A stretch of 46,080 nt of DNA from a bacterium TMED46. GTDB taxonomy: Bacteria; Fidelibacterota; Marinisomatia; Marinisomatales; UBA1611. Location of the stretch: assembly GCA_002167345.2 (NCBI GenBank), contig NHCZ02000012.1, forward strand, positions 79,524 through 125,603, in the 5' to 3' direction. Of this stretch, positions 14,901 to 32,666 are shown piece by piece. The notes under the pieces are model-generated. The model was given only the letters and a program-made list of their open reading frames with translations. It did no database searches and was not told where the DNA came from. The first letter of the stretch is position 1; each line of letters begins with the position of its first letter. Both the position numbers and the translations under genes were made by a program.

Positions 14901-17900
14901 TACCCACGATCGTTACAGTTGGCTCCTGAACCACCTCATCCGCTATAAATTGAAGCGTAATGGTACTACCTGGGATAGCCAGAGAGGGATCATCTTCATC
15001 AAGATTAGAGGCAATGGTCACCTGCTGTAGGTCTGGATTGGTATTGTCATACACAACATAACTATTGGTCGGGTCAGAAGTATTGGTTACAGCGATCCCT
15101 GTATTACCCGCTGCATCATCATAATTTGTTACGGAGATAGGAATGACTATATCAGGATCATTATAAGTATTATCATTTGTATTATTTTGCATAGCATAAG
15201 TAGCTACAAACTTTGTATTTCCAACTCTAGTAATATCATCATCTGGGATTACATTTCCAGCAATAGATATTGTTGGCTTAGTAGCTGCTTTTATAGGCGT
15301 ATCTGATATCATGGTAAGAGTAATAACATCAGCTGCTATAGCCAGAGTTGAGTCGTTAGCATTACTAGACTTGATCCTGACAGGGTCAAAAACTGGCGCA
15401 GTAATATCATAAATGACATAAGACCCATTTGTAGAACGAAGTGTAGCATTTGCAAAGGAAGCTGCTGCCTGAGTGATAGCAGACCCAGTATTCCCTGTCG
15501 GGTCTGTATATCCAGCGTCAACATTAAAATAGATGACCTGGTTATTAGTGATACCCGTTTCATTACCAGTGATAGTATGCGTTGCTGTAAATACCTTATT
15601 ATCTGCATCTGCACCTACAGCCGCGCTTACACCCAGTATAGTGACAATTGGTTTTGTAGCTGCCTTAAGTGCCTCTGCAGATGTAAGAGTGAGAGTAATA
15701 ACGTCATTAACTGTAGCCATGGTAGGATCACCATTCCCATTATTTGACGTAATGGTTACACTTGAGTTAATGGCTGTGTTGGTAAAATCTGGTGCAGTTT
15801 TATCAAAACTAACCCCACGATCATTGACCAATGAGGTTACCGCTGTTCCAACATTTCCTGCTAGATCGGTAAATGCAACCTGAAATTCTACGGAGTCAGT
15901 TTCTGTATCGGCATCCTGCATCGTATAATTAGCTGTAAATACTAGATCTCCCTGGCTAGCATTTCCATCATTTGCAGCATTCCTAATGGTAACGTCTCCA
16001 TCCGCTGATGATCTATTTGCGATGGTAACAACTGGTAACTGTATTCCATTAGGCTCAACCGTTGAATTAACAGTCATTGACATAGTAATGGCATCGTCAA
16101 CCTTGGATAATTGGTTACTATTACTATTATTAGAAGCCATTGTAAGAGCAGATAATGTAGGAGCTGTTTGATCATAGGTGAGCTGAGAGCCACCTGACAA
16201 ATCAGTCACTGTAGTCCCTACATTCCCTGCGAGATCTTTAAAACCAGCGATTGAAAACGTTAGGGCTTGTTCAAGAACGCCTGCTCCCAATTCGGAGGTT
16301 GCGGTCCAACTCGCGTTTGTATTATCCCCATTCTCAGTGGCATTCAAACTGGCCCCACCAGCACCCGTATCAAATGTTACTATAAGATCCTCTCTCAATA
16401 AACCAGAGCTAAGTGCATCAACGCCTTTAAACTTAAGAGTTACATTGCTACCAGATCTTGCATAAGATGTATCTACAGTATTATCTGATTTTATATAAAC
16501 ATTTGTTAGAGTTGGTGGAGTATAATCTATAGTGACTGTCCCATCAACGCCATCACTCGCGTGAGTATATTGGGTCCCAGCTATATTTGCCTCATTTGTA
16601 AAATCAATTGTGAAGTTTGTATTTGGATTTGTGTCGAGAATATTTTCCTCATGATCATCGGAATCCACAGTAATAGTATAGGTGTAGGTACGCACATTCA
16701 CGCCCACCTTTGTGGCAGCACCACCGGCAATAGACACGGTGGGATCTTCTTTTAAATTCTCGTTAACCTCAAAAATAAGTGTTACTATATCACTTACCTT
16801 TGCCCAAGTAGTGTTATCATTATTTGACTGTATCGATGCACTAACAATGGTCGGAGCTGTTTTATCATATGTAACTGAAGTACCTGAGGTAATATCCGCC
16901 TGAGTCACAACCTTAGTATTGCCTGCCATATCGGTCAATGTTGCTGAAAACTCTAATAGTCCCTCGGGATGTGAATCACCCATGATCGCTGATAAGATCC
17001 ATACCTGGCCACCAGTTCCTCCTTGCATGGTAGCCTCTGCTTCTATCCCACCTATGGTCCCTGCTACTCCATCATCATAATCTGTGATCTCATATTGAGA
17101 TAAATTCCGTAGCTCTTCATTCACATCAATAGTTATTGTTACTCTCTCACCTGGCTTGGCAAATGCAGTATTACTTGTTGAATTAGATGCAATCGTTAGA
17201 TTGTCGATCGTAGGAGCACTATTGTCAATCGTTATTCTAGTACCTTCATTGGTCAATGCAGTATGAGCTGAAGCTTGATTACCTGAACGATCTCTAAACG
17301 CTAATGAAAAATTCAATTGACCCTCTGATAAGCCAGCAACATCATTAAGAGTGGCAGTAAAGTTCTGCAAGTTGCTAACGCTAGCTATCGTATTTGCATT
17401 AAATGAATTGCCACTCCCCCCCCCACCTTGGAACGTCAGAGCTGGTTGTGTATTTATATTATCATCCCAGTTGTAGTCCAATAATTCACTAGCAGCAAAT
17501 GTCAGTTTTATAGCATCTCCATTTTTTGCTCGATATGGGTTTGGATTAGCATTATTGGCAGGTGTTGAGTGAGACATTTCTTCAATGGTTGGGTCTGTAC
17601 TATCATAGTATACTCGATCATTAATGGTCGGCACATCATCTGTGATGGCTGTTTCATTTCCAGCTCTATCATATATACCAGTAATTGAAAAATCTACATA
17701 GGTATTTGAAGTCTCATTGTCATCTGTCACTGTCACTGTGGAAGTAAACTCTGAGCTATTATTGCCTGCGATACCGGAAAGCGCTGGAGTGACTGTGACA
17801 TTCGTTGATGTACCCACATTAAAGACCATGTAGGCACTCTCATCAGTTGCATTATTATTATCAAAGTTACCCTGCACAAGGGTCTCACTTGCTTTTATCG

Positions 17901-18861
17901 AAAGTACAACGTTGTCACCACTTTTAGCAAAATAATCACCATTTCCAGTAACCATAGATGTATAGTATGTTGTACCATTATTAATATCGGGCGCAGTAAA
18001 GTCTGTGATTACGCTTGAACTATTTTCCGTTGATGAAATGGTTGCCGAATTACCATTGGAATCTTTTAAAATAAAACTGAACGTGACCGTCGAACCGTCA
18101 GGCATAGTATTGACTGCATTTATAGTAGCATAAGGAGACGTACTATCTAAATTTTGTGCTGAGATATTACTATTCCCATGAAAGTTACCTGTCAGAGTGC
18201 TAATAGCTTCGTCCGAGGTAAATATCATTTTGATTTGGTCACCTTCCTTAGCATAGTGTGGATAGGTCTGGTTGAAAGGAGCATCTTTAGGTGCCGATAT
18301 GGTTTGATTTGATATGGTCGGTGCGATCATATCAAAATCATATGTCTCGTAATGTTGTGTGCCGCTCGCAGTATTAGGCTCGTCATCATCATCAAGATCA
18401 TCATTCACAATGATCCAGGTCACATTACCATCATAATCAGTTCCTTGCCAATCGTCAGAAGCTTCAATAGCAGCATGAGGAATATATTGAGTAGCGGTAC
18501 CATCTGTTCCAACCGATATCTTTGTATTTCCTGCCTCATTGATCTGCTGGGAAAACCATTGATTCGAATTAGCAGGAGCCCCAGTATGATATTGTACATA
18601 TACTTTATAATCATGGTCAACCGTTGCATCAGTGATCAAAACAACAATACCACCTGTCACACCACCATTATCTGTATTCGAAACATCAATATTATATGAC
18701 CCACGACTACTTGTACCAAAAGTATTATTATTAGATAATCTGATATCAATACTTGCAGCTACTAGCTGAGAAAAACTAAGTATACCAACCAACATAGAAA
18801 CAATGTCTCTTCTGTTTAGTGTGCTCATAAAATAAAATAATATTTTTTTAATTATAAACAT
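5941..18861 (-). CDS. Giant Ig-like repeat surface protein with type IX sorting domain
   Basis: 4306 residues, unbroken. After a signal-like leader (the start could also be Met12, MSTLNRRD, at 18828) come about 13 repeats of roughly 120 residues. Each opens with a DxTAPTI-type strand and contains AKxGDxVTL and DLAGN. From about residue 1740 to 2720 there are about nine repeats of another type, recognised by SDTGxxxxDNLTN and PTFTI. Further Ig/Big-like domains follow, then two cadherin-like units near residues 3730 and 3905 (TAVNDTPN, TAKNDPPI). The last ~95 residues are a type IX secretion sorting domain: HQNYPNPFNPTTTI, INIYNLLGQQ, SGVYFIQL. The family is exported to the cell surface. Adhesion or a surface layer is likely but unproven. 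It starts six bases after the acidic protein gene and overlaps the TPR lipoprotein gene. Confidence 0.93.
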   Translation of the reverse strand: MFIIKKILFYFMSTLNRRDIVSMLVGILSFSQLVAASIDIRLSNNNTFGTSSRGSYNIDVSNTDNGGVTGGIVVLITDATVDHDYKVYVQYHTGAPANSNQWFSQQINEAGNTKISVGTDGTATQYIPHAAIEASDDWQGTDYDGNVTWIIVNDDLDDDDEPNTASGTQHYETYDFDMIAPTISNQTISAPKDAPFNQTYPHYAKEGDQIKMIFTSDEAISTLTGNFHGNSNISAQNLDSTSPYATINAVNTMPDGSTVTFSFILKDSNGNSATISSTENSSSVITDFTAPDINNGTTYYTSMVTGNGDYFAKSGDNVVLSIKASETLVQGNFDNNNATDESAYMVFNVGTSTNVTVTPALSGIAGNNSSEFTSTVTVTDDNETSNTYVDFSITGIYDRAGNETAITDDVPTINDRVYYDSTDPTIEEMSHSTPANNANPNPYRAKNGDAIKLTFAASELLDYNWDDNINTQPALTFQGGGGSGNSFNANTIASVSNLQNFTATLNDVAGLSEGQLNFSLAFRDRSGNQASAHTALTNEGTRITIDNSAPTIDNLTIASNSTSNTAFAKPGERVTITIDVNEELRNLSQYEITDYDDGVAGTIGGIEAEATMQGGTGGQVWILSAIMGDSHPEGLLEFSATLTDMAGNTKVVTQADITSGTSVTYDKTAPTIVSASIQSNNDNTTWAKVSDIVTLIFEVNENLKEDPTVSIAGGAATKVGVNVRTYTYTITVDSDDHEENILDTNPNTNFTIDFTNEANIAGTQYTHASDGVDGTVTIDYTPPTLTNVYIKSDNTVDTSYARSGSNVTLKFKGVDALSSGLLREDLIVTFDTGAGGASLNATENGDNTNASWTATSELGAGVLEQALTFSIAGFKDLAGNVGTTVTDLSGGSQLTYDQTAPTLSALTMASNNSNSNQLSKVDDAITMSMTVNSTVEPNGIQLPVVTIANRSSADGDVTIRNAANDGNASQGDLVFTANYTMQDADTETDSVEFQVAFTDLAGNVGTAVTSLVNDRGVSFDKTAPDFTNTAINSSVTITSNNGNGDPTMATVNDVITLTLTSAEALKAATKPIVTILGVSAAVGADADNKVFTATHTITGNETGITNNQVIYFNVDAGYTDPTGNTGSAITQAAASFANATLRSTNGSYVIYDITAPVFDPVRIKSSNANDSTLAIAADVITLTMISDTPIKAATKPTISIAGNVIPDDDITRVGNTKFVATYAMQNNTNDNTYNDPDIVIPISVTNYDDAAGNTGIAVTNTSDPTNSYVVYDNTNPDLQQVTIASNLDEDDPSLAIPGSTITLQFIADEVVQEPTVTIVGRPPDNLTGSNGNKTWTATIVMLEDDSDAADPIPFAISYSDLAGNNGSAYDQTGTTDGSSISFDKTKPALSAIYMVSESSDSKDSTYINPGNNLSIRFKVSEPLAALDIYMNAANRGRYPTVADDAITITKLTEWNGTFEKWKAVWPVNDGTDDDDGAGVVIPFTIDFTDLNGYSGDQVTETTDDVYVTYDKTEPSVQVFTYLSNNNTTTLAKADDIITASLTASELIQQPSIKISTASVDESAGDTDRSWTATKTLNTDDVEGQVELKLVTFKDYAGNVGRTSDINRTTTTDDLYVQYDKTKPVLTKVNVYSDNNYSSNTMAKVQDIVTIEISTGADGELISSPTVSMIGNTQDVTVTPNTPNAVSDQTWLASKTVVTNHSEGEVEFSITCTDLAGNESDAVAVLTSDTDNTNVTIDRTKTDLSGLTLDMVNDSDTGIQAYDEDGNLNWVGKTDNLTSVQAPTFSISGLTSTASASGDSIYLIIDNGTAIDTTIRSKVNANEMNFTVPSDLASQLTAYSATIVTKDPANNISDPTTVLKFRIDTDPPALGNAPDLIATHDTGFADDDNVTNNRKFTLDLVGLVANKQNVIDIYYDAESAGVDNFLVVADVMMEVDKDTPLRDGSDTIWVSRSLPDDKYTFSYTVTDSAGNVSAKSATNVITVDRTVPSTPDTPDLTVAADKGTSNSDNLTNLETIIFNVTSMAAGDSVHVINSGNVVVGRGFANGQTSAEVTIAGITEASSSDFKAYARDQAGNISSSSINALSVVIDQTAPYIDGFTVNDNGNYTDLGESPPMVVDLKADSDTGTSSTDDLTNNNKPSFTLSNLTATDSVFLYFNDDSIKGYASGTTHEFTIPDDKELADGEYNFAMKARDYAGNLSAITTIDGTNIIPVTIDTTPFTISTIPDMTPGTDTGINSEDQITNNRAPTFTMTGLPASAEIIQLYVDGILSSASTKNADVTTHEFALGSNLDEGTFDITFKIVDASGNVSAASEALSITIDFTAPSDPGIVDLVDSDDTGVSSSDNLTKRASMEITSSGLTEGDYGNLYRLDAADNLELVEQLLVDASGTLTYTATNDADGVYRFYTNIEDVAGNKSSNSDNTTITVDQTATDVSSVEIDLDTSSDTGRDNVDNLTNDKTPTFTINNTVSGDSILMVFSRVCIDQAGNNIPGCDASLPVAPNDTLRGKAAGASISLVATTSQIDNDLPDGLYTLSVFAKDDAGNYSLASPELQFNLDTQPEPIDTDHPDYPDLPIPDLMAAWDKGLYDNDNITNNQTPRILMENVTDYDYYVRLYVLTGIQNRLVAEKRKVFNQDTVSLKIPNATQDMNGDGNTDAEDFWLVEGQHTIRYTIEDDAGNVSGFSQPLVIAIDVTKPATLGQPDLLTSDDIGESDSDDLTAPLIANGAEFDNQIRINIDDGNALPGYKWVLYSFLDVDGDGNYAAASDSDLLRLDSSLVPGGRYEKWYWNNISNGLNAEDLPPADSTWEGVSDLDTVGVPATGDYYYTSQQVDSSGNRSVYSSGLQITTDFDAPTHTISYEEGGNPSDLLVRFEDGAVDVIVDYSEPMDDLVDLPTISFVRYAGNDNLAIPDATLSKVANDDQKWTYAIPVDTEGLETNNGLINLLNLVGKDRAGNALSFNDAQVTIDNNAPQFTQLFPASGSFNNVLNNFGWTLSEDIISGSVTFTNSIGNVIETIALSNGANANELNTNPAIDNHQFNGGDPNITEDTYTVTFTGTDLAGNIGETLINNYTYDITPPTVQLSFSQLVASVDTVVTVISDFIEDMSFTPQISINFQGDLHDINLSEMYIAGSCDCLDDEGVPIPDCIDDSFLECEPTGGSWQEGVDSSLWAYDLIIPEDIVNNGGVHFSLSASDLATNALDSDSTSNNYGVTILNNERLVIDNTVAVANFTYQNLSNPNLNDYAGNPTTIMGAGGDNIRITIQLNESMNPTAPIPTMNAVFGGGNDNATQLTEIAYTLVDGDADGVQNNYYIFDLTLPDLLVVIDGDTTPVDDGLVAFEFIAKDRANNFVTTQNDSNVFIVDNIHPTDFSTGLLSVHGINPVEGWITGIIDSVGIQLPIPTAGEDISLYEGGEVHFQFKNLTRGLFWQTVAPEANQTDEQYKILAAGDDIQFYRHTAELYNVMTQGDDIIGGDSLAVRGVIIDRYGNTTYGTPSTTRLAYDPSAPVIGEIVIGNNTNFGTTIYSNDTAKVDWTPFIEANEFESGLDRYEIKIERFDNLGASDDILVEWASALREVDTTIVVVDPESGEEQSVDTLLYLSQTKYSNQFLLEHKHRYIASIRAFDIAGNISDILLSDTLIRFNTAPDIQAIQDAVLFEDNYWTDSVQLVDPDLTVLQGDSFRYEATTNRIVGDAATGEASIDQNGYLAWTPTQDDTGSYTIEVLVTDNYDLKDTLFLPLTVTAVNDTPNLAILDPDNIKTWEEDTEEAVTINLSRYITDVDNEITTEIEWLAVILDTSQLDEDFPLGQVIPGPNVPWALHAKLSREYLGFNINDAASLGSNMSSKTIQMINNSRTVPHLSVTIDTPGDSVIATFSSDSNYYGDNHRVIFIAEDLAGAQVRDTIIANVTAKNDPPIISDLPDIEVIENDSIKLEFGSYTTDVDDTSLTFTITAITNEDMITIDPPMLISYNLGDSVTFTPQPLFSNEAMIKVVVSDEESSDSSIFKLDILRVIRPHLAVSVVQNNAFSKFLQVIVTDTVSKTVNLSMEVQNQDVSLDTIATHTYTGDLSFESSGNYSIDIYANAVVGDTTISETFALAAGRASGRWYGSSYDGRFTVIGDPGAIPFDQPFLIADSTLFEASFYDQASYVLGNENFSFNQPIEVRFAGERDDLAIYRRKNGVTWEELPSLTLESEIFTLSHESGYFRLGPKTIIVPEQTNIHQNYPNPFNPTTTIMYDIGLLDGLSQNVTINIYNLLGQQIVTLVEDQDQIGQFKIQWDGYDKFGQQMSSGVYFIQLSTKTGIVKNKKMMLMK

Positions 18862-18867
18862 GGTCGG

Positions 18868-19650
18868 TTAGAGATTGACTCCTAGAACGATCTGACCATC
18901 CATCCAACCTGCACGACCCAATTCTACAGACTCTGATGTTTTTGCCATTAAGGTCTCGGTAGAACGTATTCCCCCTCTAACCTCAAGCGTGCCAATTCTA
19001 ATACCATAGGATGCCTCCATAGAGAACCCAGCTGAAGAGCCAACCATACCAACACCAATTTTGATCTTTCCTGGACCAGCAGGAAAAGCGATGATACCCA
19101 TCGCTGTTATACCACTAAAGGTCTCTCCAAGATTAATTACATCATCGCCAACAGTACTGAACTTTGCATTCTCAAACTTGAAAGAACCAACCTCAGCACC
19201 AAAACGAAATCTTGCACCCATAACTTGCATAAGGAGGGGAAACTCAACGCTTGCTCTCAGATCAACATTTGAGTTCCAGTTCATCAGAGCTGGATTCACG
19301 AACCTGGGTGACCCTAAGGCTAGGTCGATGGTATAGCCTAGATTCTCTGCTTCATCTGATAGTTCTTCATCATCTTCATACTCTTCATCATCTTCATATT
19401 CTTCATCATCTTCATATTCTTCATCATCTTCATACTCTTCATCATCTTCATACTCATCATCATCAAGATATTCATCTTCATCCTCATATTCTTCGTACTC
19501 GTCATCATCGCCCCAATACTCTTCTACATCATCTTCTGGATCTTGGGCGTAGAGGTCGGGAGATGGTAAGATTATAAAAACTGAAAGACATGCCCACAGA
19601 AAAAACTGTGCAGCACGAATTAGGATGGAAATATGTGATCTTTCCCTCAT
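18868..19650 (-). CDS. Exported protein with acidic repeat and beta-rich domain
   Basis: 260 residues. A signal peptide (ending near DLYAQ) is followed by about 70 residues made almost entirely of Asp, Glu and Tyr, including five tandem EYEDDE units. The remaining ~160 residues alternate hydrophobic and Gly-rich strands (MGARFRFGAEVGSFKF, IKIGVGMVGSSAGF, SYGIRIGTLEVRGGI), suggesting a beta-barrel or beta-sandwich in the envelope. GGAG six bases before ATG 19650 supports the start. It is the first gene of the operon with the giant protein (6-base gap). No known family recognised. The acidic stretch may bind calcium (inference). Confidence 0.8.
   Translation of the reverse strand: MRERSHISILIRAAQFFLWACLSVFIILPSPDLYAQDPEDDVEEYWGDDDEYEEYEDEDEYLDDDEYEDDEEYEDDEEYEDDEEYEDDEEYEDDEELSDEAENLGYTIDLALGSPRFVNPALMNWNSNVDLRASVEFPLLMQVMGARFRFGAEVGSFKFENAKFSTVGDDVINLGETFSGITAMGIIAFPAGPGKIKIGVGMVGSSAGFSMEASYGIRIGTLEVRGGIRSTETLMAKTSESVELGRAGWMDGQIVLGVNL
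19364..19455. repeat. 18-bp tandem repeat coding EYEDDE
   Basis: About five head-to-tail copies of an 18-bp unit (plus-strand form TTCATCATCTTCATAYTC) inside the acidic protein gene, differing mainly at one C/T position. Near-identity suggests recent expansion, so copy number may vary between strains. Confidence 0.85.
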
Positions 19651-19886: not shown

Positions 19887-20678
19887 TTAGTTATCAAAGG
19901 CACCTTCTGAGATCATGGTTACAAAAGCAAAAAGATCGATCGTATTCAAAACACCATCTCCAGTAATATCTCCCTGCCCTCTCTCGCAATGGTTCATTCG
20001 CGTATCCGTTGTAATAAGATCCGAGAGCCTTAACAAATCCATTATATTAATGATAGGTTCATTATCAATGGTATAAGTATGGTCAATGTCTCCAAGAACT
20101 TCTGAGCAGGTGCATAGAGTACATTTATTTAAGGCGCCAAAGAGCTTATCGAAAATTAGGTCATATCCTTCCTGACCATAATAATCAGATGACGAATAAA
20201 TTATCTCCATTGTATGATCTATTATCATATTATATGGAACCCAAGTATCTGTAAATAAATTAGTTCCTAAACCTCCATATTCATATTCATTGTAGGTATC
20301 CTCATCAGATATTATGGGGTAACCTAAACCGAAGTTGTCTACCCACCCTTCACAGGAGTAAGGTTGGCCCCAGTCGCCTCCCATTCCAATCACAACTAAT
20401 CCTGAATCAGCATAAAGATCAAAGTATTCTTGAGTGACAGGAGCCTCCGTCAAACAATAACCTCACCAAGTTGTAAAAGCAGTTAACCATATGACATAGG
20501 GACGGCCTGTTTCATTGATAGCTCCGTTATATGCACTGAGAAATAAACTATCATCACCAGCTGGGTTATTACCACACCAAGGAAGTCCAAAATCGGATGG
20601 TGCAAAATCGCCCACATCATAAACTTGCGCACTAGAAAGCGTCATTAAAAATAATGTGATGATTAGTTTAATTTTCAC
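19887..20678 (-). CDS. Secreted selenoprotein redoxin (UGYC) with dockerin-like tail
   Basis: Read through the TGA at 20463-20465 as Sec, this is one frame of 263 residues. It has a signal peptide (MKIKLIITLFLMTLSSA, cleavage before Gln), an N-terminal LPWCGN segment, then LTAFTTW-U72-G-Y-C75. The PYSCEGW motif, the cis-proline segment TWVPYNMIID and a C-terminal pair of dockerin-like repeats follow (INIMDLLRLSDLI, then DITGDGVLNTIDLFAF). The Cys homologue at 3569 has WCSTC at the same place. A SECIS-type hairpin lies at 20430-20457. A conventional call would give two fragments (20463-20678 and 19887-20453). Probable role: thiol/selenol redox exchange outside the cytoplasm. It follows the cyclase gene by 143 bases and is ended by a terminator. 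Confidence 0.92.
20430..20457 (-). promoter_or_regulatory. Candidate bacterial SECIS element (selenoprotein 19887)
   Basis: Hairpin in the mRNA just after the UGA: outer UUG/CAA, inner UGAC+GG paired with CC+GUCA with one bulged U, and apical loop AGGCU. The loop begins 16 nt after the UGA. A bulged U and a G-containing apical loop are features of the E. coli fdhF SECIS. Folding was done by eye. Confidence 0.75.
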
Positions 20679-20821: not shown

Positions 20822-22102
20822 CTAAATACTATATGTTTTTGTTTTTGTGTCTCTTCCTTTTAGGCTTATCTCTCCCTGATATTCTGATTTATCATAGAGA
20901 TCTTTTGTAAGAGATGTATATATTTTTTGTGAGAAAAGTATGCTAGTACCGAACTCCTTATTCCTCTGCTCTAACCTTGAAGCAACATTAACAGTATCAC
21001 CAATTGTACTATATTGTAACATTCTGTCACTACCAATATTACCAGCAATGACGCTTCCGGTATGTATTCCGGTTCTTGCTGTTATTCCATCAATGCCATG
21101 ATTCTTCCAATATCTTGAGAATTCTGTCTCATCCCATCTGGCATTTAATTCAGATAACTTCTCTCTCATTTCTAAAGCACATTTCACAGAAATTATTTCG
21201 TGATCTTCTAACTTTTGTGGAGCACCAAATACTACCATAACTGAGTCACCAATATAGTTAATGATCTGTCCATTGTGTTTTTCAATGACATCATGCATTG
21301 CAGAAAAATATTCGTTTAGGAATTTTACGGCGGTTTCAGGCGACATATGTTCAATAATAGTTGAGTAAGCTGCAATGTCTGTAAATGATATGGAAACCCA
21401 AATATTGTCTCCTTGAATCTCACCTTCATTATCCAACATTTTTTCCGTAAGTATCTCCCCAAAATAACGTTTTAATGTTTGTTGCATCAATTTTCGATTT
21501 AATTCTAGGTTCTTATTTTGAAAAAAATCTCTTCTATAATCTATTTCTCTGCTGTGTTTATTCATTAAAAGGAAAATAAAGGGAAGAATGAAAACATAAG
21601 ACAATTGGTCCGGTGTCATATTGCCTTCCGATATAACAAGAAAAGCAAAAGGGATTGCAGTGCCGAGAGTGGCAATTACACCGTTAATTAAATTGAATGG
21701 ATAAATAACAAGGTATATCATTATCATATTTGGAATGACGCCAGCACCTACTGGAAACTGAATATCAGAAAAGTAATAAGTCCAAGCTCCACAGTTCATA
21801 AACCCTATTGCTTCAACTAAAAAGTAAGTCTGATGATATTTTCGTTTCTTTTGATCGGAGGAGGTGAGAAAAACGATCAGAAGGATAATTGCAAATGCAT
21901 GATAAGCAAGATAATACGGATTCATTCCCGCACCTCGAATGAAAATATCATCTATCCTTATCATAAATCCTAGAGGCACATTAAAATAAAGGAGAATCTT
22001 TATGTAAGTCCAAACCTTATTCCATCGGGTGAGGAGAAATTCATTCTCTAATTCCTTATCCTCAAATTTGCAGGTGAATTTATTTATTTGTTCTTTGTTC
22101 AT
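20822..22102 (-). CDS. Membrane class III adenylate/guanylate cyclase
   Basis: 426 residues. The N-terminal half holds about six hydrophobic segments (residues 33-50, 62-80, 90-110, 120-140, 142-158, 167-180), then a helical linker QQTLKRYFGEILTEKML typical before class III cyclase domains. The catalytic domain (about 232-426) has both metal-binding aspartates (FTD242I and GD286SV) and the transition-state pair Asn372 and Arg376 (VNVASR). The residue that is Lys in typical adenylate cyclases (DKFIGD) is Asn282 here (INYIGD), and the partner position is Ser365, so the substrate is not certain. The product is presumably cAMP or cGMP made in the cytoplasm. The gene stands between tRNA-Arg and a selenoprotein gene. 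Confidence 0.9.
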   Translation of the reverse strand: MNKEQINKFTCKFEDKELENEFLLTRWNKVWTYIKILLYFNVPLGFMIRIDDIFIRGAGMNPYYLAYHAFAIILLIVFLTSSDQKKRKYHQTYFLVEAIGFMNCGAWTYYFSDIQFPVGAGVIPNMIMIYLVIYPFNLINGVIATLGTAIPFAFLVISEGNMTPDQLSYVFILPFIFLLMNKHSREIDYRRDFFQNKNLELNRKLMQQTLKRYFGEILTEKMLDNEGEIQGDNIWVSISFTDIAAYSTIIEHMSPETAVKFLNEYFSAMHDVIEKHNGQIINYIGDSVMVVFGAPQKLEDHEIISVKCALEMREKLSELNARWDETEFSRYWKNHGIDGITARTGIHTGSVIAGNIGSDRMLQYSTIGDTVNVASRLEQRNKEFGTSILFSQKIYTSLTKDLYDKSEYQGEISLKGRDTKTKTYSI

Positions 22103-22922: not shown

Positions 22923-23789
22923 CTAATTACCCTCTACTATATAGCTAGCTAAGGCCATTATATCAATTAAATCCAGAGCATTATCACCAGTAAAATCACT
23001 CGCCTCAACATAACATGGTGAAATTTCATCACCACTGCTAACTAGATCTGAAAGGAAAAGTAGATCATATATTTCAATGCTAGGGGCATATACAAAGTTA
23101 AGACCATCAACTACGAGTTCTTCTGAAAAATCAAAATTTCCTACAGCATAAAGATGGGAGTCGGGACAATCATCACATTCATTAGCTGTACCATCTTCAT
23201 CATTATCAACGAGTGCTTCCACATTCAAATGATTCAGAGCACTTTCTATCATTGTAACAGCCTCTTCCCATACTTCTTCCTCAGCAAGGTCATTTACGCC
23301 CCCCCAGATGACTTCCATATTATGGTCTATAATAATATTGTAAGGTAGGCCCCAACCTATTTGATGCATCTGTAGATTGATAGGTATATCTTCTTGATAC
23401 CAATTAGGCATGCCAGTCTCAAAGTCAGCAATGGGATATGTAATATCAAATGAGTTCATCCATTGTTCGCAAGTATATGGCTCACCCCAATCAGCTCCAA
23501 ATGCAACCACTTCAAGGCCTTGGTCATTATATGTGTCGTATAACTGCTGTGTGAGGGGAGCCTCCCCCCAACAGTATCCTCACCAGGACGTGAAAAGAGT
23601 GGCAAATACCACCTTGTAACCACAATCGTTATATGCACCATTAAATGCTTCAAAAAAGTGTAGAGTATCTTCTCCATTACCGTTTTCACATATAGGTACA
23701 CTAAAATCTTCCATGTAAACATCTTGACCATCAAGTGGTGAAATACTAAGAAAGAATGGTATTATCAATATTGAAATGAGCTGCTTCAT
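22923..23789 (-). CDS. Secreted selenoprotein redoxin (UGYC) with dockerin-like tail
   Basis: One frame of 288 residues if the TGA at 23580-23582 is Sec. Signal peptide MKQLISILIIPFFLSI...; N-terminal SVPICENG; ATLFTSW-U70-G-Y-C73-W; then GEPYTCEQW; cis-proline segment WGLPYNIIID; a short calcium-binding type stretch DNDEDGTANECDDCPD; and two dockerin-like repeats (EIYDLLFLSDLV and DFTGDNALDLIDIMAL). It is homologous to the Cys protein at 3569 and to the selenoproteins at 19887 and 30297. The SECIS-type hairpin is at 23547-23574. A gene caller would give 23580-23789 and 22923-23510. It lies between the barrel gene at 23912 and the TlpA gene at 22896, apparently in one operon. Confidence 0.93.
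23547..23574 (-). promoter_or_regulatory. Candidate bacterial SECIS element (selenoprotein 22923)
   Basis: In the mRNA: outer stem CUGU/ACAG, inner stem GGGG/CCCC plus a G-U pair, and apical loop AGGCU starting 16 nt after the UGA. The loop and spacing are the same as at 20430 and 30983, while the inner stem differs but still pairs. Confidence 0.8.
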
Positions 23790-23911: not shown

Positions 23912-26188
23912 TCAGAATACTGAAGTCAAACTTAGCTTGAATCCGTCATCAAATGGTTCAACATACCTACAAATACCATTACTACAAATGACACCCCCTC
24001 TTAAGGTCCCATACATAAGATCAAGGCGTGTATTTGAGTTGATATTTATCATAAGATCGATTGCTACCCATTTGTTTTCCATATCCATTATATTGCCAAG
24101 AAGATCTTCTAGAGGGTTAGATATGCTTAAAGGTTGAGGTCCGTATTCATATGCTGAACTTGATTCAATGGTCAATGATAAAGACCAATTAGGTGACTTC
24201 CCGAGGCCAATAGTTAACATATGATTATTTTGAAATTCTTGAGCTAGCTTTTCATCGCTATCGCCATCATAGGCATAAAAGTTAGATCTTGTACTATCTA
24301 CGTAAGTTCCTTTTGGTGTCCATACACCATCATTATTCATATCGTCCAAGACCTCTCCATCATCCCATATTCCATCACCATCAAGGTCAGTGAAAGCTTC
24401 AGCGGGGTCCCAAATACCATCACCATCTGCATCAGAAAATTGCTCTCCAATATCATATTCACCATTGCCATTCGTGTCATAATCTGGTAACAGGTCATCA
24501 GTAATCCAACCATTCAACCAATGATCATACCAAGTGTCTTCAGCATCATCCCACACACCATTTTCATTATCATCAGTAAACAACTCTGCCATATCCCATA
24601 AGCCATCTCCATCAAGATCTTCAAAGTACTCATCCGATGACAATGTGAAATTATAATTAACACCACTTTTCAACCTTTGGTACTCATATTTGAGATCTAT
24701 ACTCAATCCATTTCCCAGATTATAATTAAACAACGTTGGTACTGTGATAGCATTGGTATATTTATTCTCTAATCTTTCATTTACGATACTATATAAATCA
24801 TCATAAGGCTCACCCAGATCCCATGTACCACTATTGTTAAGATCTGTAAAAGACTCTCCTACGTCCCAGCTATTATTTTGAGCACTACTATAAAGAGAAT
24901 GGTATTCAGATATCTTATTTGTAAAGCCTAAACCAAGTTGATATCGTATCTTATTTATATACCCTTCCATTTCAACATACAACTCATTATAAGGGAAAGT
25001 GACATCATCATCATATGGTAAATAAGTTATAGAACTATCGCTGCTCCATTTTGAACTAAATAGCGCGTTTACAGTATCTGGAAATTCTTTTGCCCATAAG
25101 CTGGTCCTGCTAGCAGCCTGATAATTAAGAGTAAAATACCCTAAATTACTGACTGGCCCTACAAGTGAGAGTTGGTAGCCCACCTCATCATTGAAATTGA
25201 CCTGTGGAATTAGCCTTGCTAGCAATACACTACTATGCTCACGAATAACTGTAGGTGGTTGAGTGAAGATCAAATTCATATCATAATTATTTACATAATT
25301 ATTTCTTTGGTCTGGATTGATCTTTGTAGCATTATAATTCTTATACTCCATCATGAGTGACCAACCATCAAAGGGTGACATGTTAAAATAGTAATTCAGA
25401 TTTGCAAATAAGGAGGTTCCATTATAGGGTCTAAAATCTTCATGGTCATCATTTCCCATAGATGTAGGTAGAAGAGTTAATTTATTTGCCAATTCTACAT
25501 ACCCACTTAATGAGTTTCCTTCATACCCACTTCTTAGCCCATGTATTCGGTGTATAACGTCGATGCTGTCTGGCTGCATACCAGCATTAATCGGATGGTT
25601 TTCACGACTTTGCAAAAAAGATGTTGCAAAAGAAACTGGGCCACGGAAGAACTCAAGATCGCCACCAAATAAGGAATGCTTTGGAAAATAATTTGGCTTT
25701 CGAACTTCAAGGTCAAGGTCATACATATAATCAGAAGTAATGTTAGATATATTGGAATTACCTGCAATAAGATTTAATGAATAATCATTTTCTATTAGGC
25801 CAAAACTTAAGCCTCTGTATCCATTGTCTAGGTCTACATCCTGGTCATCAAATTGGTTTAGTATAAGTCCCCTTCCCCATATTTTGTAAATGTCTCCAAC
25901 AGATAGTTCAATATTATCTCCAACATAATCTACCCTAAACTTTCGTAACCCATTTTTAATTAAACCTATTTCAGGAGGGTTACTATATTCAAATTGAAAC
26001 CATGTTGTCATGTAATCATTACTAACATTCATATTTAACAAGACCTCAGAATAATTAAAATTATTCTTACTCTCACCAAATTTAAGTGAAGCATCTCCCC
26101 CTGTACTTATCTGCGCGTTGACTAATGTCGTTAAAAAAACAACAAAATAAAAAATCATAATAGAAAAGAATTTGAGCAGATTATTCAT
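23912..26188 (-). CDS. Outer-membrane beta-barrel, DUF6029-like, with calcium-type insertions
   Basis: 758 residues from ATG 26188, chosen because it lies one base after the TlpA stop and opens a good signal peptide (MNNLLKFFSIMIFYFVVFLTT...NAQ). An upstream in-frame start at 26242 lies inside the TlpA gene. Alternating strands run throughout. The family-like section FEYSNPPEIG...KFRVDYVGDNIELSVGD and WGRGLILNQFDDQD is shared with the paralogue at 33977. So is the C-terminal end MYGTLRGGVICSNGICRYVEPFDDG, with a conserved Cys pair. Unlike the paralogue it has a ~110-residue insertion of DxDGDGxWD units (about 24300-24640) and a smaller one near 24770-24890. It probably forms an outer-membrane channel or scaffold; its ligand is unknown. 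Confidence 0.82.
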   Translation of the reverse strand: MNNLLKFFSIMIFYFVVFLTTLVNAQISTGGDASLKFGESKNNFNYSEVLLNMNVSNDYMTTWFQFEYSNPPEIGLIKNGLRKFRVDYVGDNIELSVGDIYKIWGRGLILNQFDDQDVDLDNGYRGLSFGLIENDYSLNLIAGNSNISNITSDYMYDLDLEVRKPNYFPKHSLFGGDLEFFRGPVSFATSFLQSRENHPINAGMQPDSIDVIHRIHGLRSGYEGNSLSGYVELANKLTLLPTSMGNDDHEDFRPYNGTSLFANLNYYFNMSPFDGWSLMMEYKNYNATKINPDQRNNYVNNYDMNLIFTQPPTVIREHSSVLLARLIPQVNFNDEVGYQLSLVGPVSNLGYFTLNYQAASRTSLWAKEFPDTVNALFSSKWSSDSSITYLPYDDDVTFPYNELYVEMEGYINKIRYQLGLGFTNKISEYHSLYSSAQNNSWDVGESFTDLNNSGTWDLGEPYDDLYSIVNERLENKYTNAITVPTLFNYNLGNGLSIDLKYEYQRLKSGVNYNFTLSSDEYFEDLDGDGLWDMAELFTDDNENGVWDDAEDTWYDHWLNGWITDDLLPDYDTNGNGEYDIGEQFSDADGDGIWDPAEAFTDLDGDGIWDDGEVLDDMNNDGVWTPKGTYVDSTRSNFYAYDGDSDEKLAQEFQNNHMLTIGLGKSPNWSLSLTIESSSAYEYGPQPLSISNPLEDLLGNIMDMENKWVAIDLMININSNTRLDLMYGTLRGGVICSNGICRYVEPFDDGFKLSLTSVF

Positions 26189-26189
26189 T

Positions 26190-26747
26190 CTAAAAATCAA
26201 TATTAAGTTTTTCTTTTTTCTTAATTGCTTGAACTTTGTCAAGATCCAGAGGTAAGTATTCTATTCCTTTTTTATCAAGAATTCCAGTAATAGCCTTCAG
26301 GATACCAACTTCATCTCCTGGGACATAACCCTTATGACGATACAATATTGAACCATCCTGATCAATAATTATCGTTGTGGGCATTTCCTGTACTTTAAGT
26401 CTCTTTTTCACCTGACTATTTGGATCTACGGCAACATTGAATTCAAAACCCTTTGTACGAACATATGGCTTCACCTTACTCATACTTTTTGGTGAATCAG
26501 TATTAACTGTAAGGACATTAAACCCAGTTGGTTTAAAATGATTATAGAAAAGGTCTAAATAACGCATTTGCTTTTTACATGGCTCGCACCAGGTTGCCCA
26601 GAAATCAATTATCATAGGTCCTTCTTTGAGAAAGTCATATAATTTTGCGTACTTACCGTTTATCATTTTAAGTCTTATGTTTGGTACCTTATCTTGAGCT
26701 GATAAAAACGAGGATATCAACGCAATCATTATTATTAGCTTTTTCAC
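26190..26747 (-). CDS. TlpA-type thiol-disulfide oxidoreductase (WCEPC)
   Basis: 185 residues with a clean signal peptide (MKKLIIMIALISSFLSA) and the fold DFWATWCEPCKKQMRYL, VLTVNTDSPKSMSKVKPY, VAVDPNSQVKKRL, EMPTTIIIDQDGS, YRHKGYVPGDE. It is very similar to the copy at 22336. The stop TAG at 26190-26192 is one base from the ATG of the barrel gene, indicating translational coupling. It follows the phosphatase gene by 29 bases. It is expected to act as a periplasmic thiol reductase; the fixed neighbour suggests that it serves the barrel or the selenoproteins (inference). Confidence 0.93.
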   Translation of the reverse strand: MKKLIIMIALISSFLSAQDKVPNIRLKMINGKYAKLYDFLKEGPMIIDFWATWCEPCKKQMRYLDLFYNHFKPTGFNVLTVNTDSPKSMSKVKPYVRTKGFEFNVAVDPNSQVKKRLKVQEMPTTIIIDQDGSILYRHKGYVPGDEVGILKAITGILDKKGIEYLPLDLDKVQAIKKKEKLNIDF

Positions 26748-26776: not shown

Positions 26777-29700
26777 TTACTTTTTCTTTATTACCACAAG
26801 GGTAATATCATCATCGTTCATTAAACCAGACATCCAATCATCACCAAGGTCAATCAGAGAATCAATGATACCCTGTGCTGTTTTATCGCCATTTACTGTA
26901 ATACAATCTTTGACCGGTTCATAGTCTAGCATCTCACCCTCATGGTTTACACACTCTGGCAATCCGTCAGATATCAAAACAAGAGCATCGTTTGACTCTA
27001 GATCAAACGAATGTAAATCAAAATCAGCTTTTTTCATTGAACCTAATGGAAGCCCCGGAACAAGTATCTCATTCACATCTTTTGATGAATGCTTATATAA
27101 GTATGCCGGGGGCATACCTGCTGATGTGAAATCAAAAGACCCATTATTAAACTTTGCCATATTTAAAGACATCCGAGTTGTACCAAGGTCGATTGCCTTA
27201 ATAGTTCTATTAAGACGTGTGGTTGTAATTGCAGGTGTGTCAAAGTCTGATCCATAGAGTCCTGCTTTTGTGATGGAGACCATCATGCCAGCATTTAAAC
27301 CATGGCCAGTTGCATCACCACACACAACATACATAGAGCCATCTTCTTGTGGAAAAAAGTCATAATAATCCCCACCAACTTCCGTGGATGTTTTCATGTG
27401 CAGTGCAATATCATAGTCAGGGTGATCTGGTGGGTTTTGCGGTATCAAGGACATTTGGAAATCTCTCGCTTGCTCGAGCTCTTGGATACGTCGTTCTTCC
27501 TCTAGTTGATATTTTTGTTTATGCATACGGTGACGCATGAAAATAAATATACCAATGATGAAAAGGACTGCATAGAATGAGAAAGCCCAAATACTTAAAA
27601 GAGGATGTGGCGTAAATTTGATATCTAACTTTGCAGGTGCGGACCATACCCCATCATCGTTAGAGCCTTGAACCATAAAATTATAAGTGCTTCTTCCAAG
27701 ATTATTATAGGATGCAAAACGTAACCCTTGAGATGATACCCAGTCCCTATCAAATGGCTCTAACTTATACCTGTATTGGTTTTTTACAGTTTGATGATAG
27801 TTGAGAGCCACAAAATCAATACTGAATGATTTTACTCTATGATCGATCACTAGGGTTGAAATACTCTCTCCCCCATTGGAATTATCAGAATCATTGAATG
27901 AGTATATTTCTTTTATTGAATCATCAAAATAGGTTTTCTTAAGTCTAGTAATCACACAGGGTGGTTGATAATCATTGAGTTGCAATGCTGCCGGATTGAC
28001 CAATGTTATGCCCATGGGTCCACCAAAAAATATGCTCCCATCTGGACTCTGATCATAACTATGCCTATGAAAATCTATATTACCTATACCATCTGTAAGA
28101 CTGTAATTGGTGAATGTTGAATTGACCTGATCATAAAATGAAATTCCTTTTTTCGAACTGATCCACAGCCCATTATTTTTATCAACAACCACACCTGTTA
28201 TATAGTTACTCGGTAAACCATTTTGAACAAAATAATGCTCAAAATTATCTTTTTCACTGACATATTTATTAAGGCCTCCATTAGTACCAACCCAGATTAC
28301 TCCATTTTTATCTTCCGTAATACAAGTTATCTGGGAAGAAGAAATACCACTAGTAAAAGCTTTATCAAAGATATGCCCTTCTAACTCAAAATCTTTTCCC
28401 TTTTCAATATCTTCTAATAGCTCATATGGAATCTTAAAAAGTCCATCCATTTCCGTTCCAAGCCAAATATTGCCGCTTGAGTCCTGGGAAATAACTCTTG
28501 CAATTAAATCTGAATTGAAATCTGTGACACTATTGGTTGTTGTATCAATTATCACCATACCAGATCCTGTGGCAACCCAAATCTTATCTTCAATGGGCAA
28601 AATATCATGAACTAGATTATTTGATATTTGTCTTGTTGGCGGAAGGCTATCTGATTCCGAAAACCTAATAATATTTTCAGCATCATAATCGTTCCAAGTA
28701 TCGATCTTTAGTATGCCTTGATCTGTCGCTACCCACAACATCACATCATTTATGATCTCAAGGTCGATTATATAGTTGACATTTAGGAGAGACTTTTCAT
28801 ACTGTTGGTCCCTGATACCATCATATGAGATTTTTTCAAGACCAAAACCAGTAGCGACCCACATCATGCCGTCACTCTGCGTAGTGATAGAATAGATCTT
28901 ATCACTCTTTAGACCCCATTCATTCTCCTGATCATATCTATGGTTCACAAACTTTGGTTTAACATAAGAAAAGAAACTGATACCATTTTGTCCCGTGCCT
29001 ATCCAAACATGGCCAGCTTTGTCTTCAATGAAATCATTTATTTCATTATCCGCTATTGATGCTTTGTCAATGGGGTCATGCTCAAAATGGTTTGCCGGCG
29101 GAGGACCTTCAGAATAGGGATCTTCTCCCACCAATAAACAGTTCAGTCCAGAATGATTTTCAGTAGTATACCACAAACGACCTGACTTAACTGCAATAAG
29201 TATTTCAGATATATCATTTTCTATTATACTGTCTGCATATGGTGTCATCTGGATATTAAAAAAACTTGACTCTGAAGAGATGTAACGAGAAATACCATTT
29301 TGGGTTGCTATCCAAAGTTCATTTCTCTTTTCATCCCAATCCAAATCTTTAACATAATTTGAAACTATTGACGTATTCTGTTTACTTTTTCTATAAACAT
29401 CTATACTACCACCGAGACCACCATTTAATTTGAATAGACCATTTGAGGTTCCAACCCAAATATCGTTTTTGGCTCCGCGCTCTATAGCATTCACAGCTAT
29501 ATCATTTAATCCAGCTTCAATACCTACTTTGATAATTTGATTTGACTTGATATCATAGTAGCGCAGGCCAGAATTGGTTCCAATTAAAATAGTGCCATCG
29601 GAGTCTTTACTTATAATGGTAACCATCTCATCATATATAACTGATTCATCTGAACAATTAAAACATGTCAATACGCTATCAACACTATTGTACTGATAAA

Positions 29701-30157
29701 CTAAACCACTATCTTTCAATTTGATATAAATATTACCTTGATCGTCATCAATAATAGTTTCAGAATTAATGAGCTCTGCTCTTTCAAGATCAATAGGCCT
29801 TGAAAATTTTCTTTTTGATGGATCAAACTTACTGACGCCTAATTCTGTACCAACCCAAATCATATGACTGGCATCTTCATAAACGGTTGAGACCTTATTG
29901 CCGAGAAGTGATAATTCATTGAATGAGTTCATTTGATAATTTGTAAACTCATAGCCATCATAAACATCAAGGCCATTTTCAGTGCCAAAATACATGAAAC
30001 CATTCCGATCTTCATAAATTACCTTAACAGTGCTCTCAGCAAGCCCATCCTTAACAGATATATTTTTGAAGGAAAAATCGGTTTGACCAAAAATATAACA
30101 AGAAAAGGCCATTAAGGTGATGATGCTTTTGTGCAGATATTTTTTATTATTCAGCAT
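26777..30157 (-). CDS. Propeller sensor with SpoIIE-type PP2C phosphatase output
   Basis: 1126 residues. After a signal peptide come about 12-14 two-component-type propeller repeats (forms such as IYEDRNGFMYFGTENGLDVYDG and EDKNGVIWVGTNGGLNKY), then a Y_Y_Y-like domain (YRYKLEPFDRDWVSS...LGRSTYNF). A transmembrane helix (WAFSFYAVLFIIGIFIFM), a coiled coil (YQLEEERRIQELEQARDFQMSL) and a SpoIIE/RsbU phosphatase domain follow, with GGDYYDFF, GDATGHGLNAGM, FTSAGMPPAYLY, LISDGLPE and NDDDITLVVI. The acidic metal ligands are present. Such proteins sense an extracytoplasmic signal and dephosphorylate an anti-sigma-factor antagonist. No partner STAS or kinase gene is in the window. It leads the operon with TlpA, barrel and selenoprotein, so it may sense envelope state (inference). 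Confidence 0.93.
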   Translation of the reverse strand: MLNNKKYLHKSIITLMAFSCYIFGQTDFSFKNISVKDGLAESTVKVIYEDRNGFMYFGTENGLDVYDGYEFTNYQMNSFNELSLLGNKVSTVYEDASHMIWVGTELGVSKFDPSKRKFSRPIDLERAELINSETIIDDDQGNIYIKLKDSGLVYQYNSVDSVLTCFNCSDESVIYDEMVTIISKDSDGTILIGTNSGLRYYDIKSNQIIKVGIEAGLNDIAVNAIERGAKNDIWVGTSNGLFKLNGGLGGSIDVYRKSKQNTSIVSNYVKDLDWDEKRNELWIATQNGISRYISSESSFFNIQMTPYADSIIENDISEILIAVKSGRLWYTTENHSGLNCLLVGEDPYSEGPPPANHFEHDPIDKASIADNEINDFIEDKAGHVWIGTGQNGISFFSYVKPKFVNHRYDQENEWGLKSDKIYSITTQSDGMMWVATGFGLEKISYDGIRDQQYEKSLLNVNYIIDLEIINDVMLWVATDQGILKIDTWNDYDAENIIRFSESDSLPPTRQISNNLVHDILPIEDKIWVATGSGMVIIDTTTNSVTDFNSDLIARVISQDSSGNIWLGTEMDGLFKIPYELLEDIEKGKDFELEGHIFDKAFTSGISSSQITCITEDKNGVIWVGTNGGLNKYVSEKDNFEHYFVQNGLPSNYITGVVVDKNNGLWISSKKGISFYDQVNSTFTNYSLTDGIGNIDFHRHSYDQSPDGSIFFGGPMGITLVNPAALQLNDYQPPCVITRLKKTYFDDSIKEIYSFNDSDNSNGGESISTLVIDHRVKSFSIDFVALNYHQTVKNQYRYKLEPFDRDWVSSQGLRFASYNNLGRSTYNFMVQGSNDDGVWSAPAKLDIKFTPHPLLSIWAFSFYAVLFIIGIFIFMRHRMHKQKYQLEEERRIQELEQARDFQMSLIPQNPPDHPDYDIALHMKTSTEVGGDYYDFFPQEDGSMYVVCGDATGHGLNAGMMVSITKAGLYGSDFDTPAITTTRLNRTIKAIDLGTTRMSLNMAKFNNGSFDFTSAGMPPAYLYKHSSKDVNEILVPGLPLGSMKKADFDLHSFDLESNDALVLISDGLPECVNHEGEMLDYEPVKDCITVNGDKTAQGIIDSLIDLGDDWMSGLMNDDDITLVVIKKK

Positions 30158-30296: not shown

Positions 30297-31241
30297 TCAA
30301 TTATTTTCCGATACGATATATGAATTAGGCGGCAAAGCAATTGTATTCTCATCTGGTAATTCACCATAAAGGACATACTGTACCAATGTAATAATATCAA
30401 GAATGTTTATAACACCATCTTCTCTAATATCACTGATCTCATAGCCACAACCCTCATCTACACCCAAGAGGACAATATCGGACAAACGAAGTATATCAAA
30501 CAGATTTATGGTTGGATTATGATCGGTCATACCAACAGACCCATCTATATTGCCAGTAACATATATTTCTAAGTTATTACAAATATCGCAAGCATCACCG
30601 AGGCCATCCAAATCAAGATCTAATTGGTCATCATTAGGGATATCAATACAATTGTCGGTACTATCCATTACCCCATCTCCATCTTCATCTCTTGGCACAT
30701 ATGATAACCCAAGTTCTATAGCAGCCATGATCGCACCTTCATTATATCCTGAAGAAGTGTATAAGACCTCATGGTTATGATCTAGAACTACATTATGTGG
30801 AATATAACCATCTCCAAATAGACTCCACGCTTCTCCACCACTTGATCCGCCATCTATCATAGGATATGTAATACCAAATGCTGAGGCCCATCCTGCACAT
30901 GTGTAGGATGTCCAGTCAAAGCCATTGGCAATTATATTGAGATAATTTTCATTTTCTGCTAAGAAGTCCTGCCATATACTCTCTGTTTGTGGAGCCTCCA
31001 CCTGACAGGATGGTCACCAAGATGTAAATAGGTTTATCCAAGTAACCTTTCCATCTCCTTCTTCAAATAAACTCCAGTAATCACCCATTACGATATCAGG
31101 ATTAACATCTTCTCCGTTCATACAAAGTGGGCCACTAAAATCAGGGGAAATATCTCCAACCTGCAGTTGAGCCTGAATAGGCATTAATGCAAGCGCGGTG
31201 AATACAAATAAACGAAGGTTTGATAAAAAAATGATTCTCAT
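30297..31241 (-). CDS. Secreted selenoprotein redoxin (UPSC) with TSP3 and dockerin-like repeats
   Basis: One frame of 314 residues if the TGA at 31014-31016 is Sec. Signal peptide ending MPIQA before Gln; N-terminal SGPLCMNG; WINLFTSW-U76-P-S-C79-Q; then TSYTCAGW; cis-proline segment DGYIPHNVVLD. Thrombospondin-3-like calcium repeats come next (DEDGDGVMDSTDNC, DLDLDGLGDACDIC), then two dockerin-like repeats (NLFDILRLSDIVLL and DIREDGVINILDIITL). Its UPSC differs from the UGYC pair, so it is not a recent copy. SECIS-type hairpin at 30983-31008. A gene caller would give 31014-31241 and 30297-31001. It follows the Omp28-like selenoprotein at 31321 by 79 bases and is followed by a terminator. 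Confidence 0.92.
30983..31008 (-). promoter_or_regulatory. Candidate bacterial SECIS element (selenoprotein 30297)
   Basis: In the mRNA: outer stem CUGU/ACAG, inner stem GUGG/CCAC, apical loop AGGCU starting 16 nt after the UGA. Compared with 23547 the inner pair G-C is replaced by U-A, a compensatory change that keeps the stem. Confidence 0.82.
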
Positions 31242-31320: not shown

Positions 31321-32526
31321 CTAGCCTCCTGCCATTACCACATCTACCAGTACTATCAGGTCGAAGTTATTTATTGTTCCATCTTCAAGCATATCTATAG
31401 ACTGGCAATCATTTGGAGGAAGCCCGCTACCATCAAGAAGATCAGATAGTGCTAAAACATCAGCCACACCAATAATCGGAGTAAAGTTTTCTCCATGAGC
31501 ATCGAGGTCTACATTCCCTTGAATATTTACAAGTCCATTACATGCGTCACAGGCATCTCCATATTCGTCTCCATCAGCATCCTCTTGACCAGGATTGTAT
31601 ACATAGTGACAGTTATCATAAAGATAAGTCAATTCATCACCATCTGGATCAGGATCTAGATTATTTATATTTCTTGTTTGAGCTTGAGTAATGGGATGGT
31701 CAGATCCTTCACTTTGAAATTGTTGCACAATAGCAACTATTTTAATATTCGAATGCTCCCAGGCATCTGACAAGAGGACATTGTGCTCAAAGATCTCTGA
31801 CTGTCCCGCTTCGCTTACCGAAACTGGATTCTTATTAGCTTCACTCTTTGTGACGTACCTTCTTGCTACATTCCTGGCGTTATGCCACTGCCCAATACTC
31901 CCCCAGAAGGAATAAATATTATCTTCAACAGCGAATACTTCAACATAGGTATTCTCAATGTTTACAGTAGTATCAATATCATTGTCAATTAGTATCTCTA
32001 CACTAAAATTGACCTCATTATCTCCAGGCTCATACTCACCTGATATGCCAAGACGAAATGCAGATGGCAGGTCATAATGCTCATGATATAACTCTAAATA
32101 TCCTGGATATATGGATTCCCAGTTCCCACCACTGGCTCCACCCACCTGATTATGCACACCATTCCATACAGTGGTCGGGTAAGCATTAACTCCATATAGA
32201 CCAGCTCTCATGGAAAAAGCTGGTTGGAGTAAAAAGTCAGAGGAGTCTGGAGTGTAAGTTGGACTGTGCCATTCAATTGAGTGTAATGTACCTGGGAATT
32301 CTTTTAGAAGTGTATCAATCGCGAAACTCGCGGATGGACAGTATGGTCAGTTAAGACCTGTAAAGTCTTCAACATAAACATTTTGACCACTTTGAGAAGC
32401 ATTCATAACAGCCATGCGTAGATTCTCGAACGCAATGTGTCTATGATCAAGTGCCTGTGCAGATAGGAAAGTAGAAATAAATGTGATCGTAATAATTGAA
32501 AGTGCTATTGAGCGAGCTTTTTTCAT
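31321..32526 (-). CDS. Omp28-like secreted selenoprotein (UPYC) with TSP3 and dockerin-like repeats
   Basis: 401 residues when the TGA at 32347-32349 is read as Sec. The start at 32526 is set by AAGAGG six bases upstream and a signal peptide (MKKARSIALSIITITFISTFLSA). The active site is VEDFTGLN-U60-P-Y-C63-P, matching the EDFTGxWCxxCP motif of Omp28-like thioredoxin-fold proteins, and NAYPTTVWNG is the cis-proline region. A beta-rich domain with QWHNARNVARRYV follows, then calcium-type repeats (DADGDEYGDACDACN) and two dockerin-like repeats (IGVADVLALSDLL, MLEDGTINNFDLIVL). A gene caller would give 32347-32583 and 31321-32211. It is probably at the cell surface; the redox partner is unknown. 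Confidence 0.92.
32320..32332 (-). promoter_or_regulatory. Candidate bacterial SECIS element (selenoprotein 31321)
   Basis: Stem CGCG/CGCG (plus an A-U closing pair) with the G-containing loop AGUUU/GUU, starting 18-19 nt after the UGA. It is identical at 33720-33732, and the sequence-varied form at 37419-37431 still pairs. Confidence 0.78.
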
Positions 32527-32666
32527 GATTAACCTCTTGGTAGTTCTCAATTCAGGATGACACAATAATAGTTGAAAACACATATAAAACTCAATAGTTA
32601 ATATTATGAGCTTTAAAATAAAAAATTATATTTTTCAATAAATTAATAACGTTGGGAAAAGTCTAT

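Follow-up and report, generated by a model that had tools for sequence, protein, structure and literature searches.

Thrombospondin type 3 repeats, represented by the models TSP_3 and TSP3_bac, are tandem Asp-rich calcium loops without helices. An insert in one outer-membrane barrel, here called barrel A, resembles them as a tandem set of Asp-rich candidate calcium loops, but it contains no cysteines and matched no Pfam model, the EF-hand and TSP_3-type models included, at E values of up to 10 in a search whose HMMER filters drop most weak matches. EF-hand-type Dx[DN]xDG loops have also been described in non-EF-hand settings (PMC3123361), and the part of that survey used here, from which we took the EF-hand ligand positions, includes a protein with a short motif-less loop whose relative carries a longer, motif-bearing one. 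Barrel A follows the same register (DxDxDGxxxxxE), whereas its tandem array, the usual spacing of 15 residues, the W or Y at position 8 and the location in an outer-membrane barrel loop set it apart from the loops in that part of the survey. Further searches with the insert returned one chance-level match in NCBIfam (CglD, E 3.3, 5.3 bits vs 400) and none among PDB chains up to E 10, and the six unit strings that we searched in the literature were found in no paper.

The window, by which we mean the whole 46,080-nt stretch analyzed (G000:C37:79524-125603), comes from a genome of 2.35 Mb in 56 contigs and encodes two barrels of the DUF6029 family, A and B, both of which match the Pfam model above its gathering score (82 and 76.9 bits vs 27). 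The gene for barrel A likely starts at the ATG at 26188, with the mature chain beginning at about 26113 (both judged by eye). DUF6029 is its sole Pfam match up to E 0.1, with neither a cohesin nor a usher-family domain, and the whole protein gave one chance match to PDB chains (E 0.88). The DUF6029 family is present in 45 of the 61 genomes searched, the window's own genome counted. Barrels A and B are 32% identical over their best 509 aligned columns, and a quick tree places B in a clade of 19 rows, to which the window's family contributes 18, and A in a 3-row clade from a single genus. Given these separate clades, we rejected A as a recent duplicate of B; the deeper position of A is weakly supported.

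Mature barrel A contains seven units of the form [DN]x[DN]x[DNS]Gx[WYF][DNST] (Table 1); 5000 shuffles gave 0.03 units on average and never more than 3. The units are 12-residue loops in the EF-hand loop register, and six of them lie in one long stretch at a spacing of 15 residues, interrupted by a single gap of 32. The stricter pattern Dx[DN]x[DN]Gx[ILVWYF][DSTN]xx[DE] is fitted by five of the seven, the misfits being one unit with S at position 5 and one without an acid at position 12. The stretch as a whole is strongly acidic, with 27 Asp, 8 Glu and a computed pI of 4.05. These results confirm the description in an earlier note of a roughly 110-residue insert of DLDGDGLWD-type units that the paralogue lacks, as six units fall within 107 residues of A. 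For the smaller insert that the note had also described (DLNNSGTWD), the motif is indeed present in A and absent from B, but extra length relative to B is not: this loop, loop 9, is longer in B, at 45 residues, than in A, at 35, and its median across the 63 aligned sequences, which include A and its two congeners, is 8. The seven units have 40–69% of their bases in common, and a recent tandem expansion at the DNA level was rejected, as Tandem Repeats Finder reports nothing in 24295-24890 at a score of 30.

Table 1. Features of the two barrel loci, with positions in the window.
Feature	Positions	Strand	Basis
Protein, in-frame TGA giving U-GYC, dockerin-like tail	19887-20678	minus	tail picked by eye
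AhpC-like protein (25.5 bits, cut-off 26) with in-frame TGA (U-GYC) and dockerin-like tail	22923-23789	minus	
Barrel A, DUF6029 (PF19494) outer-membrane barrel	23912-26242	minus	Pfam, E 4.9e-23
CSNGIC, last predicted extracellular loop of barrel A	23969-23986	minus	alignment and motif count
107-residue repeat stretch in predicted extracellular loop 10	24308-24628	minus	motif scan and model
Degenerate unit DMNNDGVWTPKG, position 12 without acid	24308-24343	minus	motif scan
Unit DLDGDGIWDDGE	24353-24388	minus	motif scan
Unit DADGDGIWDPAE	24398-24433	minus	motif scan
Unit DTNGNGEYDIGE	24443-24478	minus	motif scan
Unit DDNENGVWDDAE	24539-24574	minus	motif scan
Unit DLDGDGLWDMAE	24584-24619	minus	motif scan
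Part of predicted extracellular loop 9 that carries the motif	24794-24877	minus	motif scan and loop comparison
Seventh unit DLNNSGTWDLGE, loop 9	24809-24844	minus	motif scan
TlpA/ResA-like thioredoxin, overlaps barrel A reading frame	26190-26747	minus	Pfam, NCBIfam
Redoxin-like protein with in-frame TGA (U-PSC); tail weakly matching TSP_3 and Dockerin_1	30297-31241	minus	
Omp28-like protein (29.2 bits, cut-off 34.9) with in-frame TGA (U-PYC) and dockerin-like tail	31321-32583	minus	
Omp28-related selenoprotein (NF045500, 2e-118), part after TGA, dockerin-like tail	32727-33710	minus	
Barrel B, DUF6029 paralogue without units	33977-35953	minus	Pfam and motif scan
TlpA-like thioredoxin, overlaps barrel B reading frame	35931-36458	minus	profile partly built from this gene
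Omp28-like protein, part after TGA (U-PYC), dockerin-like tail	36471-37409	minus	

AlphaFold models of mature barrel A (63 sequences; mean pLDDT 79.1, pTM 0.77) and of barrel B (50 sequences; mean pLDDT 90.1) share a layout of 24 strands by our own count. On the short side of the barrel A model, the 11 inter-strand turns have 2–9 residues (0–10 across the alignment); on the long side there are 12 turns of 2–135 residues, nine of them of at least 10, and the model places both inserts here. Outer-membrane barrels of this kind have, as a general rule, periplasmic termini, so that inserts on the long-loop side would face outside; loops 9 and 10 thus presumably lie on the outer side of the barrel and not toward the periplasm, an orientation deduced from the lengths of the loops and from what generally holds for such barrels. 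Loop 10 has 135 residues in A and 37 in B, with a median of 16 in the 63 aligned sequences. It is mostly well predicted in B, where loop 9 is partly so (blocks of 55–84), whereas segments 409-441 and 499-601 of the barrel A model are almost wholly below a pLDDT of 50, as are the few short helices in its loop 10. The 15-residue spacing leaves three residues between most of the loops in the insert, and this spacing together with the EF-hand-type register makes it likely that the units bind calcium outside the cell. The earlier note's proposal of calcium-binding extracellular loops thus finds support, as far as calcium-type loops on an outer face are concerned, in the register of the units and in the predicted topology.

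Chaperone-usher pores are 24-strand barrels, and in a structural comparison of barrel A the ushers FimD and PapC, with the same strand number, were the best VIA-align matches (Z 17.7, rmsd 4.2 over 362 aligned residues, and Z 17.0), but at 11% identity and with porins and AlgE nearly equal (Z 14–16). The top Foldseek rows were TonB receptors, OmpM1 and AlgE, at TM-scores of about 0.2–0.5. These matches are consistent with a likeness in strand number and general barrel shape rather than with kinship or common function.

Both barrels belong to DUF6029, but among 85 distinct members (each at least 450 residues, pooled from two overlapping sets) only three carry at least two units, all from the window's genus; a single DxDxDG match occurs in five others (L063, L082, L175, L183 and L202). 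The repeat itself is far more widespread, occurring in 113 of the 199 phylum genomes searched and in 52 of 61 related genomes (the window's own included in both counts), while the reversed peptide was found in none of the 61. A search of five genomes of other groups (reached via L193, L194, L198, L199 and L205) did not find it, a negative that shows little. Loci L213-L215 did not enter the analysis. From 35 loci, a part of the repeat-search matches, we took 39 open reading frames selected for at least two units, which include one cluster of 15 and another of 18. Pfam matches among the 39 were to CarbopepD_reg_2 (15), the TonB Plug (13) and the TonB receptor barrel (8), and we take the proteins with these matches to be the cluster of 15. 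Among the cluster of 18 is an open reading frame that adjoins a TonB receptor in the window's own genome and has, by eye, a lipoprotein-like N-terminus. In that TonB receptor a unit lies at residue 720, within the barrel domain (589-1072), and the repeat also occurs in a secreted-type M6 peptidase. An open frame at L122:8583-12500 (G059:C23) contains more than 20 calcium-loop units by a looser pattern and has no Pfam match below E 0.1; a PDB search with a 1306-residue stretch containing more than 20 units yielded just three matches, all to antibodies and at chance level. The survey thus documents a candidate tandem calcium-loop repeat in more than half of the genomes sampled from the phylum, presumably Candidatus Marinimicrobia, unmatched by the Pfam and NCBIfam libraries searched, and barrel A is a clean case of this repeat entering a single barrel loop.

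We consider loop 10 of barrel A to be, quite probably, a genus-specific, calcium-stiffened surface extension with a structural role rather than a specific dock for dockerin-like tails. In one genus, the tenth extracellular loop of a 24-stranded barrel would have grown by acquiring six EF-hand-type calcium loops, presumably free of helices and for the most part spaced by 15 residues, with a seventh in loop 9. In what is presumably a marine setting, seawater would load these loops with calcium and may thereby stiffen an acidic, otherwise floppy loop of 100 residues into a surface spur that would most likely brace or shield the pore mouth or present a surface. A possible but rather unlikely alternative is that the loop offers a surface for adhesion or for gathering ligands, for example by holding an acidic polysaccharide or secreted substrate through bound calcium. 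Such a role would suit the presence of the repeat in proteins predicted to be secreted or at the surface (TonB receptors, a neighboring family in which one member looks lipoprotein-like by eye, and the M6 peptidase), and one paper raises a link between barrels resembling DUF6029 and polysaccharide export as a possibility (PMC9603273); against it, the immediate neighbors of the barrels that we scanned in the window are thiol-redox and regulatory genes.

It is unlikely that the loop is instead a disordered, acidic and near-neutral expansion held by drift, with no calcium role. The low pLDDT of loop 10 is compatible with plain disorder as well as with the structural extension that we favor, and the loop is confined to one genus. 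Protein change is also faster in the repeat stretch than in the rest of barrel A, at 15 of 107 vs 56 of 598 residues relative to one congener (L044) and 5 of 107 vs 11 of 598 relative to another (L042). Synonymous codon changes relative to L042 are few in the stretch (3 of 107, vs 82 of 598 in the rest of the barrel), so that amino acid changes (5) exceed synonymous ones (3), and the stretch could therefore be weakly constrained. However, across the three genomes with units, the side-chain ligand positions 1, 3, 5, 9 and 12 vary at only 1 of 35 sites, whereas the other loop positions vary at 10 of 49, six of the ten at position 7 (Fisher p 0.022). This conservation of ligand positions, the exactness of the 12-residue EF-loop register and the reuse of the unit throughout the phylum all argue against drift.

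The earlier note had further suggested that the loops could dock calcium-type partners such as the dockerin-tailed selenoproteins. Around barrels A and B, six genes, chosen by eye, have dockerin-like tails, and the in-frame TGA of each would read U-x-x-C; in the Omp28-related selenoprotein gene, a neighbor of the barrels that matches NF045500, this TGA is at 33747-33749 and would give U-PYC. A tRNA-Sec was found at 63.3 bits (cut-off 47), in a search that also scores in all 14 control genomes and exceeds the cut-off in five of them. Pfam Dockerin_1 gave nothing above its cut-off in the three tail proteins scanned and one match at 13.3 bits vs 22.9, and the label ‘dockerin’ for these tails is weakly based. 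Because we used only proteins of the window to build the tail, TlpA and Omp28 profiles, the window's own matches to them arise by construction. A dockerin-like tail gene lies within 6 kb of all three barrels with units and of 36 of the 82 without (Fisher p 0.09, with the three forming one clade and barrels near contig ends counted without correction). By the same profiles, 21 stretches around repeat genes contain no dockerin-like tail, TlpA, Omp28 or DUF6029 gene. Dockerins bind cohesins, and their calcium is internal to the dockerin. The window's genome encodes, outside the window, a 1112-residue cohesin-domain protein at L212:2584-5922 (G000:C24; PF00963, 35.2 bits vs 24.1), with a secretion-tail match just below its cut-off (25.4 vs 27) and further cohesin-like segments by eye; the dockerin-like tails could possibly bind this protein. 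Of the 61 genomes, 47 have cohesin matches, although the six-frame match in the window's genome fell under the cut-off. Docking of the tailed selenoproteins at the loops, although all three unit-bearing barrels have such neighbors and both loops and tailed proteins are predicted or expected outside the membrane, is thus very unlikely and finds no support in gene neighborhoods, given that unit-less barrels also have these neighbors, that repeats occur in TonB-type receptors and in stretches without a tail gene, and that a cohesin is encoded elsewhere. Judged by gene neighborhood, the repeat is present in barrels that lack such partners, an outcome that the earlier note had named as refuting its proposal. 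Literature searches found no paper pairing Marinimicrobia with dockerin, or Omp28 with selenoprotein, and nothing related on barrels with TSP3 and calcium.

Among 79 DUF6029 barrels with at least 500 bases of upstream sequence, 73 have a TlpA-like gene directly upstream, overlapping the barrel gene in 56 and lying within 50 bases in 15 more; two of the six without one have such a gene nearby on the opposite side. In both A and B, the mature chain has no cysteines other than those of a CX4C motif in the last predicted extracellular loop, whose length is constant at 16 across the alignment. The CX4C pair is found in all 42 barrels of at least 540 residues from the family search and in 62 of the 63 rows of the alignment, the remaining row ending short there, although this latter count is biased because one of the two patterns that led to 74 of the loci covers the CX4C region. 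A literature query by the word DUF6029 only found no paper linking TlpA to the family. The near-constant pairing of a TlpA-like gene with a large, cysteine-paired barrel gives this uncharacterized barrel family a testable redox partner. We speculate, as a tentative and rather doubtful proposal, that a redox module for thiol exchange or redox-controlled export across the outer membrane could be formed by three parts: a TlpA-like thioredoxin in the periplasm, a DUF6029 pore of 24 strands with a conserved CX4C pair at the surface, and secreted selenocysteine-containing thioredoxin-like proteins, held by dockerin-like tails on a cohesin scaffold. The calcium-loop spur of barrel A would then be an accessory at the surface of this module, specific to the genus.

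The redox genes of the window are interspersed with a Reg_prop/Y_Y_Y/SpoIIE regulator (26777-30157, minus strand) and a guanylate/adenylate cyclase (20822-22102, minus strand). Elsewhere in the window, 5941-18861 (minus strand) encodes a protein of 4306 residues that has a Por_Secre_tail match and nine Ig-like stretches of the Big_13 type, and an 18-base tandem repeat at 19363-19494 encodes an acidic EYEDDE-type tract within a 260-residue open reading frame (18868-19650).
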